DNA of 64,000 nt. Origin: Actinomycetes bacterium (GTDB lineage: Bacteria; Actinomycetota; Acidimicrobiia; Acidimicrobiales; RAAP-2). The stretch is from contig JAJZVL010000002.1 in assembly GCA_021845725.1 (NCBI GenBank), positions 1-64,000 on the forward strand. The letters are read 5' to 3'. The notes below the pieces were generated by a model. The model was not told the DNA's origin. It worked only from the letters and a program-made list of their open reading frames with translations, and searched no databases. Both the position numbers and the translations under genes were made by a program. Positions 17,038 to 25,347 of this stretch are shown piece by piece (position 1 is the first letter of the stretch; each line of letters starts with the position of its first letter).

Positions 17038-17787
17038 TCATCGGGTCCCCACGCCCTTCGCCGCGCTCCCAACGCCGAAGGCGATCGCAGCGGCGATGGT
17101 CGAGAGGGCGAGCTGGCGGAACGCTGAACGAACAGGGGACTTCCCCGTGAAGATCCCCAGTGCCCCACCGACAACGGCGGCCAGGAGACCTGCGGCCACT
17201 ACCGTGGCGATGACCGCCGCCGCGCCGCTGGTCACGAGCCATGGCACCAGCGGCACGGCCGCCCCCAGTGCGAAGGTGGCGAACGACGACGCGGCCGCGA
17301 TGACCGCTGATCCGAGCGAGGACCGGTCGATGCCGAGCTCCTCGCGTGCGTGGGTCTCGACGGCGAGCTCCTCGTCCCTCATCATCGCGCTGGCCAGCCG
17401 GTGCGCCAGGTCGTGGTCGAGACCCCGGCTCTGGTAGATGCCGGCGAGCTCGCGCCGCTCTGCCTCCGGGAACTGCTGGATCTCCCGGCGTTCCTTGTCG
17501 ATCTCGCGTTCGAGCAGCTCGCGCTGGGCCCGCATCGACACGTACTCCCCGATGGCCATCGAGCACGCGCCGGCGGCCAGACCCGCCAGTCCGGCCAGCC
17601 GGACGACGCCGGCGGCCGGGTGCGCACCGGCCATGCCCACGATGAGCGAGACGTTCGTCACGAGCCCGTCGCTGACACCGAACACCGCGGCACGCGCCGC
17701 GCCACCTTGCACGGCACGATGGCGTTCGGGCACGCGCTGCTCGGGTGCGGCCTCCTCGGGTTCCGGTGATCCGCCGGATACCGGCAC
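17038..17787 (-). CDS. VIT1/CCC1-family membrane transporter (iron/manganese)
   Basis: A 249-residue membrane protein. The family core reads AAVFGVSDGLVTNVSLIVGM in helix 1, then GLAAGACSMAIGEYVSMRAQ in helix 2, followed by a charged cytosolic region rich in Glu (LLEREIDKERREIQQFPEAE) that in this family binds metal, then three C-terminal helices. Members export Fe(II) or Mn(II) from the cytosol. GTG at 17787 is chosen because GGAGGT lies four bases upstream; an in-frame GTG at 17880 would overlap the upstream ABC gene. Confidence 0.85.
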   Translation of the reverse strand: MPVSGGSPEPEEAAPEQRVPERHRAVQGGAARAAVFGVSDGLVTNVSLIVGMAGAHPAAGVVRLAGLAGLAAGACSMAIGEYVSMRAQRELLEREIDKERREIQQFPEAERRELAGIYQSRGLDHDLAHRLASAMMRDEELAVETHAREELGIDRSSLGSAVIAAASSFATFALGAAVPLVPWLVTSGAAAVIATVVAAGLLAAVVGGALGIFTGKSPVRSAFRQLALSTIAAAIAFGVGSAAKGVGTR

Positions 17788-17854
17788 AGCTACCTCCACG
17801 GATGGTCGGGGGTGTCCGAGCGTCACGATGCCGTGGGCGGCGACGATCGACGGG

Positions 17855-18979
17855 TCATTGGTCCACTGCACTGCCCACACGCTCGGCCCGGTCGGCGCTG
17901 AACAAGAAACACCCGCCCGACTCCAGCTCGAGACCCACGACGGTGCCCCGGGGCACTCGTCGCTCGCTCACGACTCCCGAGACCCGATGGCCCGCGGGCA
18001 GGTCCACGACCAGCTCGTAGTGACGGCCCCGGAAGGCCGTGTCGGCGACGTGGCCGACGAGATGGGCGGAGCCTCCTTCAGGGTCGCAGAGGCGGACCGC
18101 GGTGGGCCGGATCGCAAGGGATCCATGCTCCTTCGCGTCGCCTGTGGCGAGGCGCACTTGGATCGGTCGGACGCTCGAGAAGGCGACCGGGCCGACCTGG
18201 ACGTGGCCGGGAGCAACACCGTCACCCGTGACCCGCACGTCGAGCTCCGCGCAAAGCCCCGTGAAACGGGCGACGAACAGGCTCGCCGGTGAGCTGTAGA
18301 TCTCTTCTGGCGTCGCCAACTGCACGAGCACGCCGTCGTGGAGCAGCCCCACGCGATCCGCGAGGGCGAACGCCTCCTGCTGGTCGTGGGTGATGTAGAT
18401 CGTCGTCGCGCCGGCCTCGCGTACGAGCGAGGAGATCTCGACGCGCATCCGCTCACGTAGGTCTGCGTCGAGGTTGGAGAGCGGCTCGTCACACAGGAGC
18501 AGTCCCGTGTCTGCGACCAACGCGCGGGCGAGCGCCACGCGCTGCTGCTCGCCGCCCGACAGCTGGGTCGGGAACCGGTCTCCGAGGTGGCCCAGCCCAA
18601 CCCGCTCGAGGATGTCCATGGCCCGGCCCCGGGCCGCGTGGCGGGCGAGCCGACGGCGCCGAAGGGCGAACGCGACGTTGTCGCGAGCGGTCAGGTGGGG
18701 CCACAGCGCATAGTCCTGGAAGACCATGGCCAGGTCACGACGCTCTGGGGGAAGGTGGGTCTTGCCGTCCGCGACGACCGTCGTGCCGATCACGATGCGT
18801 CCGGACGAGAGACGCTCGATGCCAGCGAGCGAGCGCAGCAGCGTCGTCTTCCCGGAGCCCGAGGGGCCGAGAAGGACCATGAACGTCCCTGGCTCCACCG
18901 TGAAGCTGGGCCCACGCAACGCGTGGTTGCCGCCGGGATAGACCTTCGACACCTTTTCGACGACGAGTCGCTCAGCCAC
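17855..18979 (-). CDS. ABC importer ATP-binding protein (FbpC/PotA type)
   Basis: A 374-residue ATPase. Walker A GPSGSGKTT at residues 38-46, Q-loop VFQDYALWPHLTARDN, signature LSGGEQQRVALARAL, Walker B LLLCDEPLSNLD, H-loop ITHDQQEAF. A C-terminal TOBE-type regulatory domain covers the last ~130 residues. The GTG start overlaps the permease stop (GTGGCTGA), so it is translationally coupled. With the permease and binding protein upstream it forms a complete importer of the ferric iron / polyamine / aminoethylphosphonate superfamily. Substrate is discussed under the binding protein. Confidence 0.92.
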   Translation of the reverse strand: MAERLVVEKVSKVYPGGNHALRGPSFTVEPGTFMVLLGPSGSGKTTLLRSLAGIERLSSGRIVIGTTVVADGKTHLPPERRDLAMVFQDYALWPHLTARDNVAFALRRRRLARHAARGRAMDILERVGLGHLGDRFPTQLSGGEQQRVALARALVADTGLLLCDEPLSNLDADLRERMRVEISSLVREAGATTIYITHDQQEAFALADRVGLLHDGVLVQLATPEEIYSSPASLFVARFTGLCAELDVRVTGDGVAPGHVQVGPVAFSSVRPIQVRLATGDAKEHGSLAIRPTAVRLCDPEGGSAHLVGHVADTAFRGRHYELVVDLPAGHRVSGVVSERRVPRGTVVGLELESGGCFLFSADRAERVGSAVDQ

Positions 18980-20795
18980 GGACCGTCGAGCCGATGCGGC
19001 GCCAGCCCTTCGGAGCGAGCACCCGGTAGGCGAGCAGCACGGCGCACACGAGGCACAGCGCGATGGCGACGCCGATGACTGCCTGTGCGAGCCCGAGACC
19101 GAAGTGATAGCCCGCGACATTCAGATTGATCGCCACCGAGAGCGGCGGCGAGCCGGGGGCGTAGAGCAACTGGGACATCGGCAGCTCGAGGAAGATCCCG
19201 CAGAACGTGAAGAGCCACGCCATGACCACCGGGCGCGACACGGCAGGCAACACCCCGCTGAGCCATGCACGCAGTGGTCCCGCGCCGTGCGCGCGGGCGG
19301 CATCGTGGAGCGAGGGCTGCACCTGGGAGACCGGACCGACGAGCACGCGCGCGTTCGTCGGAAGGCTCGAGGCGATGTAGCCGATCACGAGCAGCCAGAC
19401 CGTCTGGTAGATGTCGACCCCGATACGAGAGAGGAAGGGAAGGTTGTATGCGAAGATGTACCCAGCCGCGAAGACCACTCCTGGTAGAGCCACGGTCGCG
19501 AGAAGGAGGAAGTCGAGCATGGCGGCCGAGCGCGTCCGGCGACGCGAGAGGAGCCGGGCCACCATGAAGCCCGCGACGACCGTGATGGACGCGGTGACGA
19601 TCCCGTAGACGAGGGAGCGGTAGATGGGCCCGGACACGCCAGGGATGTGGAGCACGCCCGAGTAATTCGCGAAGGTGATCCTGCTCGACGCTCCGAAGTC
19701 GGCGAGCAGCGATCCGGTCACCGTGCCGACTGCAGGTGCTCCAAGGGCCAATGCGAAGAAGAGCGCGACGCACCCGGTCGCGAGGATCGTGCCCTTCGTG
19801 GAGAGCTGGCGCCGGACCGCTTGGCGCGTCCGCGCCGAGAGCACCGCGTAGGATCTCCCGCGCAGCGCCCTCGCCTGGAGCACGAGCGGCAGCGCGACCG
19901 ACGCGACGAGGACGAGGCCGATCGCGGCCGCTGCGGGGAAGCTCGGGGGAAAGTTGCCGATTGCTGCATAGAGCTGGTACGTGGCAAGGGAGAAGTGAGA
20001 GTTGTAGGCGAGCGTGTACGCGACCCCGAAGTCGCTGATCGCCTCCGCGAACCCGATGGCGAGCGCGGACCAGATTGCCGGGGCGAGGATCGGCAGGACC
20101 AGCCGGAGCGCCGCAGATCTCGACGCGCCATGGACGCGCGCCGCATCCTCGAACTCCTGGCCGAGGCCGGCGAGCGACGCGGTGATGGTGAGGTAGGCGA
20201 ACGGTACGGCGCGCAGCCCGAGCAGCAGCACGACGCCGAACGGACCCATGATCGCGTGTGTGACGAAGGCGGAACCGAGACCGAACCGTGTGAGCACGCC
20301 GTCCTTCACGACGAGCCGCTCCCAGCCGATCCCGGGCAGCCACGAAGGGAGCAGGAGGACGAGCCACATGCCAAGGGAGACGAACCGACGGCCCGGCAGG
20401 CTCGTGCGTCCCGCCAGCCAGGCGATCGGGAGCCCGATCACCAGCCCCAGCAACGCCGCCGAGGCGCTGACCCACAGTGAGTTCACGATCGAGGCAGCCG
20501 TCGTCCCGCTGAAGATCGTCTTCAGGTAGGCCAGCGTGAACCACTGGGGTCCCTGGTCGAAGAGCCTCGGCGAGACCGACAGTGAGAGGAAGCAGGCGCA
20601 GGGCACGAGGATGAACAGGGCGACCAGGCCCCACATCCCGAAGCGCAGTGCGCGCCCCGCCGCTACGAACCGGCTCGCCGTGACCCTTCCGGTGGGCAAT
20701 GGGGACGCCGGAGCGTTGAACCCAGCCCCTTGGCCGCCCGTCGGAGCGGGCACGTCGCGTGCCAAGAGCTCCGCGTCCCGATCGGCGAGGGTCAC
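18972..20795 (-). CDS. ABC importer permease with two fused BPD domains (FbpB type)
   Basis: A 607-residue membrane protein with about 12 helices in two similar halves. Each half has an EAA loop: EFEDAARVHGASRSAALRL in the first and PSLHDAARAHGAGPLRAWLS in the second, so a single chain supplies both translocation domains as in FbpB/PhnU-like systems. GTG start. It follows the binding-protein gene by 43 bp and overlaps the ATPase gene by 8 bp. Confidence 0.92.
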   Translation of the reverse strand: MTLADRDAELLARDVPAPTGGQGAGFNAPASPLPTGRVTASRFVAAGRALRFGMWGLVALFILVPCACFLSLSVSPRLFDQGPQWFTLAYLKTIFSGTTAASIVNSLWVSASAALLGLVIGLPIAWLAGRTSLPGRRFVSLGMWLVLLLPSWLPGIGWERLVVKDGVLTRFGLGSAFVTHAIMGPFGVVLLLGLRAVPFAYLTITASLAGLGQEFEDAARVHGASRSAALRLVLPILAPAIWSALAIGFAEAISDFGVAYTLAYNSHFSLATYQLYAAIGNFPPSFPAAAAIGLVLVASVALPLVLQARALRGRSYAVLSARTRQAVRRQLSTKGTILATGCVALFFALALGAPAVGTVTGSLLADFGASSRITFANYSGVLHIPGVSGPIYRSLVYGIVTASITVVAGFMVARLLSRRRTRSAAMLDFLLLATVALPGVVFAAGYIFAYNLPFLSRIGVDIYQTVWLLVIGYIASSLPTNARVLVGPVSQVQPSLHDAARAHGAGPLRAWLSGVLPAVSRPVVMAWLFTFCGIFLELPMSQLLYAPGSPPLSVAINLNVAGYHFGLGLAQAVIGVAIALCLVCAVLLAYRVLAPKGWRRIGSTVRG

Positions 20796-20838: not shown

Positions 20839-21918
20839 TCACTTGGCGATCGTGTTCACGAACCAGCTGTTGATCGATGCCTCTCGCGGCCCCCAGACGT
20901 AGGGGTTCGTGTGCTGGACCTTGACCGAGGAGAGGCTCGGTAGCCCCGGCCGCGGGCTGATGCCCTGGATCACCGGGTAGTAGAGCGAGTCCCCAGTCGG
21001 TGTCCCTGTCTTCATGACCGCCTGGCCGAGCTTGGAGAGGACGAAGCTGGCGAACTTCTTCGCCTCGGCGATCTCGGTCTTTGTCGCCTTCGCGTCGATG
21101 CCGATGTTCGAGGGCAGCATGGTCGTCGGGCTCAGGTACTTCACTTTCAGCGTGGGGTCTGTGTGCTCGGCCCCGATCGCCGCAGTGCTCTGCACGAGGG
21201 CGATCTTGATCTGGCCGCTTGCAAGCGCGGACACCGTCGGACCGTTCGTTGTGTGGATGACCAGGCCGTTGGCCTTCAGCTTTTCGAAGTACCGCTTGCC
21301 CTTTGTGATGCTGCCGAGGTAATTCATCATCCCCGCGATGAACGGGTACGTCGGCCCGGACTGCGAGGGTGTGTTCATCCCGACGTCGCCCTTCCACCTG
21401 GACGACAGGAGTGTGCTCCACGACCTCGGGGGGTTCTTCACCACCTTGGATGTGTAGGCGATCGGCGCCATGAGCGTGATGCCGGTCGGGACGAAGCTCT
21501 CGTCCTTCGGGATGACCTTCTTGCCGAGCGCGTTCCACTTCACCTTGGGCTCGAAGTGCTTCACGAGCATGTGCTCGTCGTCGAGCTCGGCGAACGCTGT
21601 CTGACCGTCCACCCACAGGAGGCCCCAGTGAGGGTTGTTCTTCGACGCCTGGATCTGCGCCAAGAGCGGACCCGTCGAGTTTGTATCGAGCTTGGTCGGG
21701 ATCCCCGTCGCAGCCTGGAAGGCATGCACCATCGCCTGGTCGTACCCCTGGGCCGAGTACACGACGAGCGGCACCTTCTTCTTCCCCTTCTTGGCGGCGA
21801 ACGCAGGAGTCGCACCGGTGGCCGCGCCGACGACGACGGCCGCGCAGACGAGGCCGGCACCGAATGCACGCCGGCGGCGACCTCTCCGACCGCGCCTCAT
21901 CGAATTCGCTTGCCTCAT
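20839..21918 (-). CDS. ABC importer substrate-binding protein (FbpA/PhnS-like)
   Basis: A 359-residue exported protein. The N-terminus has a cluster of Arg (RRGRRGRRRRAF) followed by a hydrophobic stretch and ATPAFA, a Sec or Tat-like signal peptide without a lipobox. The mature part starts VPLVVYSAQGYDQAMVHAFQ and is a type 2 periplasmic-binding fold close to ferric iron and 2-aminoethylphosphonate binders. ATG at 21918 is chosen for its AAGGGAG site 7-8 nt upstream. A run of PHO-box-like repeats lies upstream on this strand, which favours a phosphorus-containing ligand over iron; this is inference. Confidence 0.88.
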   Translation of the reverse strand: MRQANSMRRGRRGRRRRAFGAGLVCAAVVVGAATGATPAFAAKKGKKKVPLVVYSAQGYDQAMVHAFQAATGIPTKLDTNSTGPLLAQIQASKNNPHWGLLWVDGQTAFAELDDEHMLVKHFEPKVKWNALGKKVIPKDESFVPTGITLMAPIAYTSKVVKNPPRSWSTLLSSRWKGDVGMNTPSQSGPTYPFIAGMMNYLGSITKGKRYFEKLKANGLVIHTTNGPTVSALASGQIKIALVQSTAAIGAEHTDPTLKVKYLSPTTMLPSNIGIDAKATKTEIAEAKKFASFVLSKLGQAVMKTGTPTGDSLYYPVIQGISPRPGLPSLSSVKVQHTNPYVWGPREASINSWFVNTIAK

Positions 21919-21995
21919 GCGCTCGCTCCCTTCGGACGGTCTCGTATGTGCCATCGGCCGATCCTCACTCAGTGGCCGCAGCGCACCGTACGCGT

Positions 21996-22050
21996 CGCTG
22001 GTTAACTGCCCGCGACGCGATACTGAACTCCAGCCGTACGGTCGGTGAAC
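21996..22050 (-). promoter_or_regulatory. PHO-box-like 11-nt direct repeats upstream of the ABC importer
   Basis: Read on the minus strand from 22050 downward in steps of 11: GTTCACCGACC, GTACGGCTGGA, GTTCAGTATCG, CGTCGCGGGCA, GTTAACCAGCG. Three of five units start GTT(C/A)A and all are in phase. Streptomyces PhoP binds 11-nt direct repeat units with a GTTCA-type core, so this reads as an operator of four to five units 78 bp upstream of the binding-protein start. Confidence 0.55.
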
Positions 22051-22074
22051 TTCTCGCGACGCCTGCATCAGCGG

Positions 22075-22113
22075 GTGCCGGTACTGCCGGCGCTTCCGGC
22101 ACCTGCCGGCGCT
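22075..22113. repeat. Inverted and direct repeats in the divergent importer/regulator gap
   Basis: GTGCCGG (22075-22081) and CCGGCAC (22096-22102) form an inverted repeat with a 14-nt loop. CTGCCGGCGCT occurs at 22084-22094 and again at 22103-22113 as a 19-bp-spaced direct repeat. They sit between the two PHO-box-like arrays. The rest of the 364-bp gap (21919-22282) shows no gene. Confidence 0.6.
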
Positions 22114-22132
22114 GAGGCACGGTTCTGCGAGA

Positions 22133-22187
22133 GTTCACCCCGGGTTCATCCGCGCGTTGCGGTTGCGTCGCGCCCCGTTCATCTGCA
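22133..22187 (+). promoter_or_regulatory. PHO-box-like 11-nt direct repeats upstream of the response regulator
   Basis: In 11-nt steps from 22133: GTTCACCCCGG, GTTCATCCGCG, CGTTGCGGTTG, CGTCGCGCCCC, GTTCATCTGCA. The first two units are adjacent near-perfect copies and the fifth returns exactly in phase. The array ends 95 bp before the response-regulator GTG and points toward it, consistent with autoregulation by a PhoP/RegX3-type protein. Confidence 0.65.
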
Positions 22188-22282
22188 ACTCGTAGGGTTC
22201 TCGCGATGAGGCGGCAGGAATTGGTCGTCACGCCACTCCACCGTCCGTGGCTGCGGGCCGCGGGAAGGCAGGAGGGCGCAGC

Positions 22283-23065
22283 GTGACCGTCGCTGGCGAC
22301 CGGACCGGCGGACGGGACAGGTCCGGGGTGCCCCGGGGATCCCTGCATGGTGGAGGGACGGCACCGAGCACCGCGTCACGACCCTGTCCCCTCGTCCTCG
22401 TCGTCGACGACGAGGCCTCCTACGGCCAGGCGCTCATCTCGGGGCTCGGCCAGGAAGGGTTCTCGGTAGAGGTTGCCAGAGACGGGCACGAGGCGCTCCG
22501 GTTGTTCACCCGAACCCGCCCTGACCTCGTGCTGCTCGACGTCATGCTCCCCGACCAGTCCGGCGTGGGGCTCTGCGAGCGATTGCACGCCGCCGCGTCG
22601 GTGCCCATCATCTTTGTGAGTGCCAGGGGGTCCGAAGCCGACATCGTGCTCGGCCTCGAGGCAGGCGCGGCGGACTACATCGCCAAACCGTTCCATCTGC
22701 GCGAGCTGGTGGCACGGATGCGTGCGGTGCTCCGGCGCGGCGCGGAGCTCCCAGTGCAGCGCGACGAGGTGCTCGCAGGCGGCCCCGTCCGCCTCGACAC
22801 CGTCCGTCGGGAGGTCCGCGTCGGGGGCCGGCCGGTAGACCTCTCGCGCAAGGAGTTCGACCTCCTCGCCATGCTCTTGCGTCACCCTGGCCTGGTCGTC
22901 ACCCGAGAGCAGTGCATCGATCAGGTGTGGCGGAGCCAAGACCTCACGGACACCAGGACGCTCGACACGCACGTCAAGCGACTGCGCTCCAAGATCGAGC
23001 TCGACCCCGCCAACCCACGACACCTCGTGACCGTCCGCGGGGTGGGCTTCCGCTTCGATCCTTGA
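22283..23065 (+). CDS. OmpR/PhoB-family response regulator (PhoP/RegX3-like), without a linked kinase
   Basis: A 260-residue two-domain regulator. Receiver domain from about residue 37: acidic pair D42-D43, phospho-acceptor D86 in LVLLDVMLPDQSG, switch Ser in FVSARG, and K in YIAKPF. The C-terminal winged helix has RKEFDLLAMLLRHPGLVVTR, DTRTLDTHVKRLRSKIE and VRGVGFRF. GTG at 22283 is chosen for GGAGG with a 7-nt spacer; it leaves a 36-residue unstructured N-terminal extension that is unusual for the family. No histidine kinase gene is adjacent. Flanking PHO-box-like repeats suggest phosphate-starvation control. Confidence 0.9.
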   Translation: MTVAGDRTGGRDRSGVPRGSLHGGGTAPSTASRPCPLVLVVDDEASYGQALISGLGQEGFSVEVARDGHEALRLFTRTRPDLVLLDVMLPDQSGVGLCERLHAAASVPIIFVSARGSEADIVLGLEAGAADYIAKPFHLRELVARMRAVLRRGAELPVQRDEVLAGGPVRLDTVRREVRVGGRPVDLSRKEFDLLAMLLRHPGLVVTREQCIDQVWRSQDLTDTRTLDTHVKRLRSKIELDPANPRHLVTVRGVGFRFDP

Positions 23066-23197: not shown

Positions 23198-24466
23198 GTG
23201 ACTGGCGCACGCGGTCGCACCGGGCACAACGTGGACCTCCGCCGGATCCTCTTCGCCCGTGGCGCTCGGGGGCTCACCTCGGGGTACTTCGCCGTGGTCC
23301 TCGGCGTCGAGCTGCACCACCAGAGACTGTCGGGCATCGAGGTCGGGCTCGTGCTCGGGGCTGTCCTCGGCGGTGCGGCGTTCGCCCTGCTCGGGGTGCG
23401 GCGCTTCGCCGACGGCGTTGGTCGTCGGCGCTGCTACCTCGCCGGATACCTTGCCCAGTCGGTGGCGGGCCTCGTCCTCGTCCTCTCGCCGTGGTGGTGG
23501 CTGCTCGTCCTCGTCGGCCTGACCGGAGCGCTTTCGGGCGAGATCATCGACTCGGGCCCCTTCGGTGCGCTCGAGCAGGTCATGCTCACGACCGCCGTCA
23601 CCGAGGAGCGGCGACTGCGCACCTTCACCAGCTACGGCGCGGTCGGAACCGCGACGGGCGCGCTGGGCGCGCTCGGCGCCGGGCTGCTCGAGCTCGTCGG
23701 CCCCGGCGCCATCGGCCGGTCGAGCTTCCTCCCGATCATCCCGCTGGCGCTGTTCGGGGCAGCGTGCGCCTGGGGGCTGTCCGCTCGCGTCGAGCACGTC
23801 GCGATCGACGTCACGACCGGGTCGCCCGCACCGACCAGAGCCGGCCGGCCCGCTGGCAGCGAGACCCGCCAGATCGTGCACCGTCTCTCGGCCCTGTTCG
23901 CCCTCGACTCGTTCGGAGCCGGCTTCACGGTGCAGGCCTTCGTCGCCTACTGGCTCGCCGCCCGCTTCGACGCGGGCACGCTCTCGATCGGGATCATCTT
24001 CTTCGGGCTCGGAGTGCTCCAGACGTTCTCGATGATGGTGGCCGGTCGCCTCGGCGCACGGTTCGGGCTGCTGGCGACGATGGTGTTCACGCACCTGCCC
24101 TCGAACGGGTTCCTCGCCGCCATCGCCTTCGCCCCGAGCCTGCCGGTTGCCGCGGTGCTGCTCTGCCTTCGAGCCTCCCTGTCGCAGATGGACGTACCGA
24201 CGCGCAACGCCTATGTCATGGCCCTCGTCCCAGCCGAGCACCGGACCGACGCCGCGAGCACGACCGGCGTCGCCCGGCTTCTCGCGCGCCCGCTCGGTCC
24301 GCTGCTGGCGGGCGCGGCCCAGACCCTGGCCCTCGGCGCACCCTTCCTCATCTCCGGGGCGCTGAAAGGCATCTACGACGTCAGCCTGTGGCTGTGGTTC
24401 CGGCGCGTCCCGCTTCCTGATGGGAACCCGTCCGTGCGAGGCGAGCCGAAGGAGCAAACACATTGA
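23198..24466 (+). CDS. MFS transporter, unassigned subfamily
   Basis: A 422-residue membrane protein with about 10-12 helices. The N-terminal half carries [19 protein letters not shown] and the loop [17 protein letters not shown], a motif A variant; the central cytosolic loop is short and Arg-rich. Later segments ([38 protein letters not shown]) match uncharacterised actinobacterial MFS permeases. The substrate is unknown. GTG start. It lies alone downstream of the response regulator and converges with methylglyoxal synthase, overlapping it by 86 bp. Confidence 0.82.
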
Positions 24467-25214
24467 ACAACCGCCTGAACGAGGCAGCGACGACATGAAA
24501 TGGATGACCCGTGATGAAATGGATGACCCGTGCCCGACCGAAGACCGCCCGGATCGCGTGCCGCGCCGGACAAACGTGCCGGGACTCTCCAAAGAGCCCG
24601 CCCGCGCCCCCTGCGCCGTCCGTAGCGGGCGTCGCTACGCGGGTCCTGTCGGCGCTGCCTTGGGTCGTGAGAAGCGCCCGGCCTCGGAGCTTCGCCGAAC
24701 CACTGCCGGCAGACGACCTCAGGCGGCGTAGCCGGTCGGCGCCGGTGTCGTCGCGAACCGCCGAGGCGATGCGGCGGGCGGTCGATGCCTCGTAGCCCGA
24801 CCCGAGCAGCGAGGAGGAGACGAGGTAGTCCGCCGTTGCGCGGTTGGAGGCGGCCGGCACGTTCCAGACCACTGCGATGCGCAGCAGTGCCCTCACGTCG
24901 GGATCGTGCGGCTGGGCTTCGAGCGGGTCCCAGAAGAACACCAAGAGGTCGATCCCTCCCTCGGCGATGCGCGCGCCGATCTGGAGGTCGCCGCCGAGCG
25001 GACCGCTGCGCAGGAGCTCCACATCCAACGCGAGCTCGCGTTCGAGCAGGCGTCCCGTGGTCCCCGTGGCGACCAAGCGGTGCCGGGCGAGCAGGTCACG
25101 GTTGAAGCGCGCCCAGTCCAACAGGTCGGGCTTGCAGTTGTCGTGCGCCACCATCGCGATGCGCCGTCGACGGTGGGGCGGTGCTGGCTCCGGGCGGTGG
25201 TCCATGCCCACCAC
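24381..25214 (-). CDS. mgsA: Methylglyoxal synthase with an unusual C-terminal extension
   Basis: Residues ~17-150 match MgsA, which converts dihydroxyacetone phosphate to methylglyoxal and phosphate: [66 protein letters not shown] and [14 protein letters not shown]. These include the catalytic Asp and phosphate-binding Lys/Thr/Ser residues. The usual length is 130-155 residues; here the frame continues to 277 with Arg/Ala/Gly-rich sequence lacking family similarity. The tail contains a 19-bp duplication and overlaps the convergent MFS gene. The start could be ATG 25214 or 25205. The enzyme call is firm; the reality of the tail is not. Confidence 0.85.
24495..24532. repeat. 19-bp perfect tandem duplication
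   Basis: ATGAAATGGATGACCCGTG occurs twice without gap just after the MFS stop and inside the methylglyoxal synthase tail. Nineteen is not a multiple of three, so the duplication shifted the reading frame of anything translated through it. Confidence 0.97.
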
Positions 25215-25347
25215 GTTGCCCGGTCGAGACGAACGTGCCGTGACCCAGCCGCGAATTCCGGATGAAACGTCTGCGCGTGGACCCCGGCTTGCTCGAGGTG
25301 CAGTCCAGCTCGCCGAACGGACTCAGCCGCGTCCTCCCATGCTGGCG

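Follow-up and report, generated by a model that had tools for sequence, protein, structure and literature searches.

The gap between a divergently transcribed ABC importer operon and an orphan OmpR-family response regulator carries two arrays of 11-nt direct repeats that lie back to back and point outward. On the evidence of their sequence and of the genes that share it, these arrays are probably PHO-type operators that place both the importer operon and the regulator in a phosphate-starvation regulon. The kind of switch is already known; its variant form, in a little-studied lineage, is new. For this lineage, which has been recovered almost entirely through metagenomics and in which the relatives are titled Acidimicrobiales, the arrays would supply a defined phosphate-starvation operator. 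Positions are given for the window, by which we mean the whole 64-kb stretch of DNA that was analyzed (Table 1).

Table 1. Features of the window around the divergent gap
Feature	Position	Strand	Details
VIT1-family (iron/manganese) membrane transporter	17038..17880	-	PF01988, E 2.6e-61; overlaps ATPase end
ABC ATPase with TOBE_2 domain	17855..19120 (open frame)	-	PF00005, PF08402; PhnT2-like below cut-off
Fused two-domain ABC permease	18972..20795	-	PF00528 in two stretches; PhnU2-like below cut-off
Substrate-binding protein	20839..21918	-	Pfam SBP_bac_8; signal-peptide-like N-terminus
Candidate -10 box TACGGT	21985..21990	-	16 nt after start of last importer-side unit
Importer-side array, putative PHO type	21996..22050	-	Five 11-nt steps; 1, 3, 5 strong; cores GTTCACC, (GTACGGC), GTTCAGT, (CGTCGCG), GTTAACC (brackets, weak steps)
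Regulator-side array, putative PHO type	22133..22187	+	Five 11-nt steps; 1, 2, 5 strong; cores GTTCACC, GTTCATC, (GTTGCGG), (CGTCGCG), GTTCATC (brackets, weak steps)
Candidate -10 box TAGGGT	22193..22198	+	16 nt after start of last regulator-side unit
Small upstream ORF	22207..22287	+	26 aa; TGA overlaps regulator GTG
Orphan OmpR-family response regulator	22284..23065	+	PF00072, PF00486; likely start GTG 22284
Methylglyoxal synthase gene	24381-25278	-	

Paired repeat arrays and their promoter geometry

The units of the plus-strand array read, in order, GTTCACCCCGG, GTTCATCCGCG, CGTTGCGGTTG, CGTCGCGCCCC and GTTCATCTGCA, and those of the minus-strand array, from 22050 to 21996, read GTTCACCGACC, GTACGGCTGGA, GTTCAGTATCG, CGTCGCGGGCA and GTTAACCAGCG. 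The original prediction had described five in-phase units on each side; the five-step frame was right, but only 6 of the 10 units are strong, each array having three clear units and two weak ones. Its figure of 364 bp for the gap comes close to the 365 bp that we measured from the ATG of the binding protein at 21918 to the GTG of the regulator at 22284. That ATG, which lies behind a GGGAG ribosome site, is the likely start by comparison with L035, the nearest relative (the same record as G049:C23). When the gap was shuffled 20,000 times with dinucleotides preserved, three in-phase GTTMA units never arose on either strand, and no such site occurs in the 64-kb window beyond the two arrays, which confirms both as real.

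Between the arrays, a stretch of ~55 nt at 22066-22122 can fold into a strong hairpin (-31.5 kcal/mol). It is missing in L035, and a fixed inter-array spacing was rejected on that ground. An Rfam search of the window gave zero matches.

Each array is followed by a predicted -10 box at a set distance. From the start of the last unit to the TANNNT hexamer there are exactly 16 nt in all regulator promoters (21/21), importer promoters (12/12) and pstS promoters (3/3; TACCGT in L156, L157 and L159), while this hexamer occupies only ~0.05% of positions in the window. The spacing agrees with array units that overlap the promoter -35 region, as judged from these predicted -10 boxes, and its rigidity provides a usable rule for finding more Pho genes in these genomes.

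The arrays are conserved beyond the window. In L035, importer and regulator are again divergent and both arrays are present; their core letters are identical at 30 of 30 positions, compared with 224 of 267 in the remaining aligned gap. Orthologues of the regulator (65 to 84% identical) were found across the family with varying gene neighbors, among which a flavin-type oxidoreductase gene often occupies the opposite flank, and nearly all of those inspected carry an array of the form GTTCAYC, GRTCAYC, two weak steps, GTTCAYC. Importer orthologues are 55 to 84% identical, and in 12 genomes the gene for the binding protein is preceded by an array with the same word; clear arrays are absent from most of the more distant importers (L041-L056), which tells against the PHO reading. 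Importer and regulator are adjacent only in the window and L035 and lie two genes apart in G027; elsewhere they are separate, and each retains its own array. The idea of a regulator built into the importer locus therefore holds for the window and L035, and nearly so for G027, but not for the rest of the family: what looks like "built-in" regulation is two putative Pho promoters, each conserved independently of the other, that are neighbors only locally.

Phosphate genes that share the arrays

PHO boxes of actinobacteria, such as those for Streptomyces PhoP, are 11-nt direct repeats with the core GTTCACC (PMC4415409), mycobacterial RegX3 recognizes a GT/GTCAcc word (PMC7884335), and the PHO units of Streptomyces glpQ1 and glpQ2 likewise overlap the -35 region (PMC7866108). 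The arrays described here share with these 7+4 units the core word, the 11-nt phase, the head-to-tail orientation, the place over the -35 region and the presence of pstS among the genes served. They differ in having five steps, of which 1, 2 and 5 (or 1, 3 and 5) are strong, in the back-to-back placement of two arrays, and in the very rigid 16-nt spacing from the last unit to TANNNT.

Since resemblance of a word is weak evidence by itself, we ran further tests of PHO identity. In 172 family genomes, the strict tandem GTTCAYC-N4-GTTCAYC gave 56 matches compared with 7 for a reversed control. Downstream genes were read for 30 of the tandem matches and included PstS (L156, L157, L159 and L160) and PHS-type transporters (L163, L165, L167, L169-L171 and L174), for which the best NCBIfam model is the phosphate:H+ symporter, with a score below its cut-off. 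Perfect tandems number only two in the window's own genome, the one in the window and another that precedes a PHS-type transporter gene on contig C140. In G002, an orthologue of the regulator lies directly upstream of pstS-pstC.

The original prediction had called for a PHO-box weight-matrix scan. With a matrix trained only on PstS and PHS sites from other genomes, the regulator array ranked first (32.6) and the importer array second (25.1) among all window positions on both strands, a result that reflects shared motif and gene context and not independent discovery, since the training sites were picked by the same-word pattern. The C140 array scored 41.2 and ten other stretches of the same genome scored no more than 15.4; the scan revealed no array at the canonical senX3-regX3 locus of this genome, a further point against the PHO reading. 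Together with the recurrence of the word and geometry at pstS, these sequence comparisons strongly support reading the arrays as PHO operators, much as had been proposed. PstS (PF12849) was unmatched in the window's own genome, though this genome encodes PhoU and a SenX3-RegX3 pair; the assembly is 92.5% complete, so this result does not prove that PstS is absent.

Two further sites came to light in these scans. The strongest PHO-type array seen in the window's own genome, at C140:1-804 (L069), is flanked by the PHS-type transporter and an arsenate-reductase-like gene. The third-best matrix match in the window lies just upstream of the methylglyoxal synthase gene, which encodes a phosphate-releasing bypass enzyme and is rare, occurring in 3 of the 172 family genomes. 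We dropped this candidate array, as the site is lost in G049 and leaves only a weak echo in G047.

A kinase-less paralogue of RegX3

RegX3 is the phosphate regulator of mycobacteria. The window regulator has a receiver and a winged-helix domain with an intact phospho-acceptor region, and its best PDB match, which is also its closest solved relative, is RegX3 of M. tuberculosis (2oqr; 233 bits), followed by MtrA (187 bits). Contig C78 of the same genome holds a canonical SenX3-RegX3 kinase-regulator pair, whose regulator matches RegX3 at 270 bits and shares 52% identity with the window regulator. In our tree, the M. tuberculosis protein groups with the C78 protein, and the window regulator falls outside this canonical RegX3 clade, in a sister clade formed with its orthologues. 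The recognition helices of the two clades are nearly the same (TRTLDTHVKRLRSKIE in the window-regulator clade and TKTLDVHVKRLRSRIE in the RegX3 clade). No SenX3-type kinase gene was present beside the window regulator or in the inspected orthologue neighborhoods, as expected from the earlier description of a PhoB-type regulator lacking a kinase. The RegX3 matches, the 52% identity to the C78 protein, the sister-clade position and the near-identical helices lead us to regard the window regulator as a conserved kinase-less RegX3 paralogue. The family thus keeps a second RegX3-type regulator, with its own putative PHO array.

The regulator also differs from RegX3 in having a small overlapping ORF in front. 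This ORF starts ~8 nt past the -10 box, which would make its transcript near-leaderless, and recurs at the same place in L136-L154 and L035 with lengths of 24 to about 118 aa. Relatives keep the frame and an ATGA/GTGA-type overlap, and the product often ends in DDAA, while codon-level constraint is weak; the ORF is perhaps a translational coupling device. Tandem pairs of orphan-type RegX3 paralogues were seen at L243 (G057:C134:21389-22926) and L241 (G058:C27).

In the mechanism that we infer, a phosphate signal would lead a phosphorylated RegX3-type protein (the orphan, the C78 RegX3 or both) to occupy each array head to tail and to activate rather than repress. The last bound subunit would sit at the -35 position, 16 nt from TANNNT, and recruit RNA polymerase as PhoB does, with the phosphoryl group probably supplied by SenX3 or by cross-talk. 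The regulator would thereby come under positive feedback or hierarchical control, and the importer genes would be expressed to bring in a phosphorylated organic compound.

It is possible, if not what we favor, that the arrays are PHO operators read solely by canonical SenX3-RegX3 and that the orphan is a target, maybe dedicated to another signal. The canonical clade shares the recognition helix, PHO tandems are present in genera without a close orphan, and G035, with a canonical-type match only, has a weaker importer array that keeps the -10 geometry. However, essentially every orthologue of the orphan retains the array at its own promoter, as autoregulation predicts, and the orphan came to adjoin the importer or pst in separate genomes. 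Genomes taken to lack the orphan are not decisive on the binder, because G057, G058 and G060 proved to contain deep branches of its clade, leaving only G035, which is 81% complete. This alternative alters the identity of the binder and not the nature of the arrays.

The importer and its metal-linked partner genes

Domain matches place the binding protein, permease and ATPase in the iron/phosphonate/sugar-phosphate superfamily, consistent with the original assignment of the importer to the iron/aminoethylphosphonate superfamily. The true start of the ATPase lies inside the 3' end of the permease gene.

Iron was weighed as a substrate by aligning the binding protein with FbpA structures (3kn8, 1qvs and 3kn7). 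Opposite the FbpA ligands H9, E57, Y195 and Y196, the window protein has G, D, T and A, respectively, and a tyrosine pair at the FbpA position is missing from all 30 relatives. Ferric-iron binding through the FbpA ligand set was rejected, as the His, the Glu and the Tyr pair are all missing from a protein that otherwise shares superfamily and fold with the ferric-binding proteins FbpA and HitA. We then compared folds using a structure model built with the 30 relatives (pLDDT 83.5). The best matches were AfuA with glucose-6-phosphate (Z 35.6; rmsd of 2.4 over 303 residues), the vibrio glucose-6-phosphate binder VcA0625 (Z 35.3) and the pyridoxal-phosphate binder P5PA (Z 34.2), with a fructose-6-phosphate (F6P) binder and 4r6y also among the top matches; ferric HitA scored lower (Z 32.8), although the margin of the organophosphate binders is modest (Z 34-36 versus 33).

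AfuA itself long carried an iron-transporter annotation (PMC4546632). P5PA and AfuA hold phosphate in a Ser/Thr-Gly clamp at three helix starts (PMC8427247), and in the window protein helices begin at the invariant stretches S79-T80-G81, S185-G186-P187-T188 and T222-N223, as judged from the model and alignment without residue superposition. The sugar contacts of AfuA are His205, Asp206 and Glu229 (PMC4546632); in the 30-relative alignment there is no conserved His-Asp pair near the expected place, where, at an approximate position, Q241-S242 is found. Compared with the hexose-phosphate importer AfuABC (4r73 and 4r74) and VcA0625 (8x1a), the window system thus has the same binding-protein fold (Z 35-36) and Ser/Thr-Gly-rich helix starts, but only 20% identity, a fused permease, a VIT1 or FTR1-like partner and no evident AfuA sugar ligands.

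A phosphonate substrate had also been proposed. The 2-aminoethylphosphonate importers PhnSTUV and PhnS2 share the subunit make-up of the window importer, the nearest named NCBIfam models for its subunits are PhnS, PhnU2 and PhnT2, and 4r6y is a top fold match; however, all subunits score below the equivalog cut-offs, by far in the case of the binding protein (60.6 bits against a PhnS cut-off of 310). PhnJ of the C-P lyase was absent from 14 of 14 importer genomes, and matches to phosphonatase in these genomes were all below the cut-off. An importer of 2-aminoethylphosphonate under Pho control is therefore highly improbable. With the iron ligands absent, organophosphate binders at the top of the fold matches and neither PhnJ nor an above-cutoff phosphonatase in the 14 importer genomes, a phosphate ester appears to be the likeliest substrate class. 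The system is a strong candidate for an organophosphate importer, one that annotation would otherwise assign to the uptake of iron or phosphonate.

The partner genes complicate this picture. Behind or beside the importer, most relatives have a gene for an FTR1-type membrane protein that resembles COG4280 and matches OFeT_1 weakly; the window has a VIT1 gene, G043 has VIT1 alone, directly behind the importer, and L035 has both, with VIT1 after the FTR1-like gene. The VIT1 and FTR1 families are tied to iron or manganese, so these genes argue against a pure phosphate role and point to iron or manganese. This partnership at most importer loci, like the placement of the binding protein in the FbpA/PhnS superfamily, would suit an importer of iron or manganese that answers to an OmpR-type regulator, with the PHO likeness of the arrays reflecting only a specificity common to the regulator subfamily. 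We consider that reading unlikely given the replaced FbpA ligands, the phosphate-ester binders among the best folds, and the operator word and geometry shared with pstS.

Metal-bound phosphate compounds offer one possibility for reconciling the partner genes with a phosphate-ester importer. Examples are ferric-phosphate and metal-bound phosphate esters, which should be dominant in iron-rich acidic water. A bolder version, to which we give only a slim chance, has the importer take up metal-complexed phosphate compounds during phosphate starvation, the VIT1 or FTR1-like partner handle the metal (by disposal or uptake), and a lineage-specific, self-amplifying kinase-less RegX3 paralogue control the system.

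Importer operons end in a VIT1 or COG4280/FTR1-like gene in the window (17038-17880), at L035:5602-6387, at L058:12117-12875 and at L220 (G043). The two kinds of gene are seemingly interchangeable, which is unexpected for a Pho-controlled importer. In G046 (L226) and G053 (L227), the importer has a regulator-NUDIX pair on one side and the FTR1-like gene on the other. In the window's own genome, C10:918-3877 (L068) keeps the regulator, the NUDIX gene and the FTR1-like gene but lacks the importer, whose three ABC genes lie in the window instead and have apparently moved between loci.
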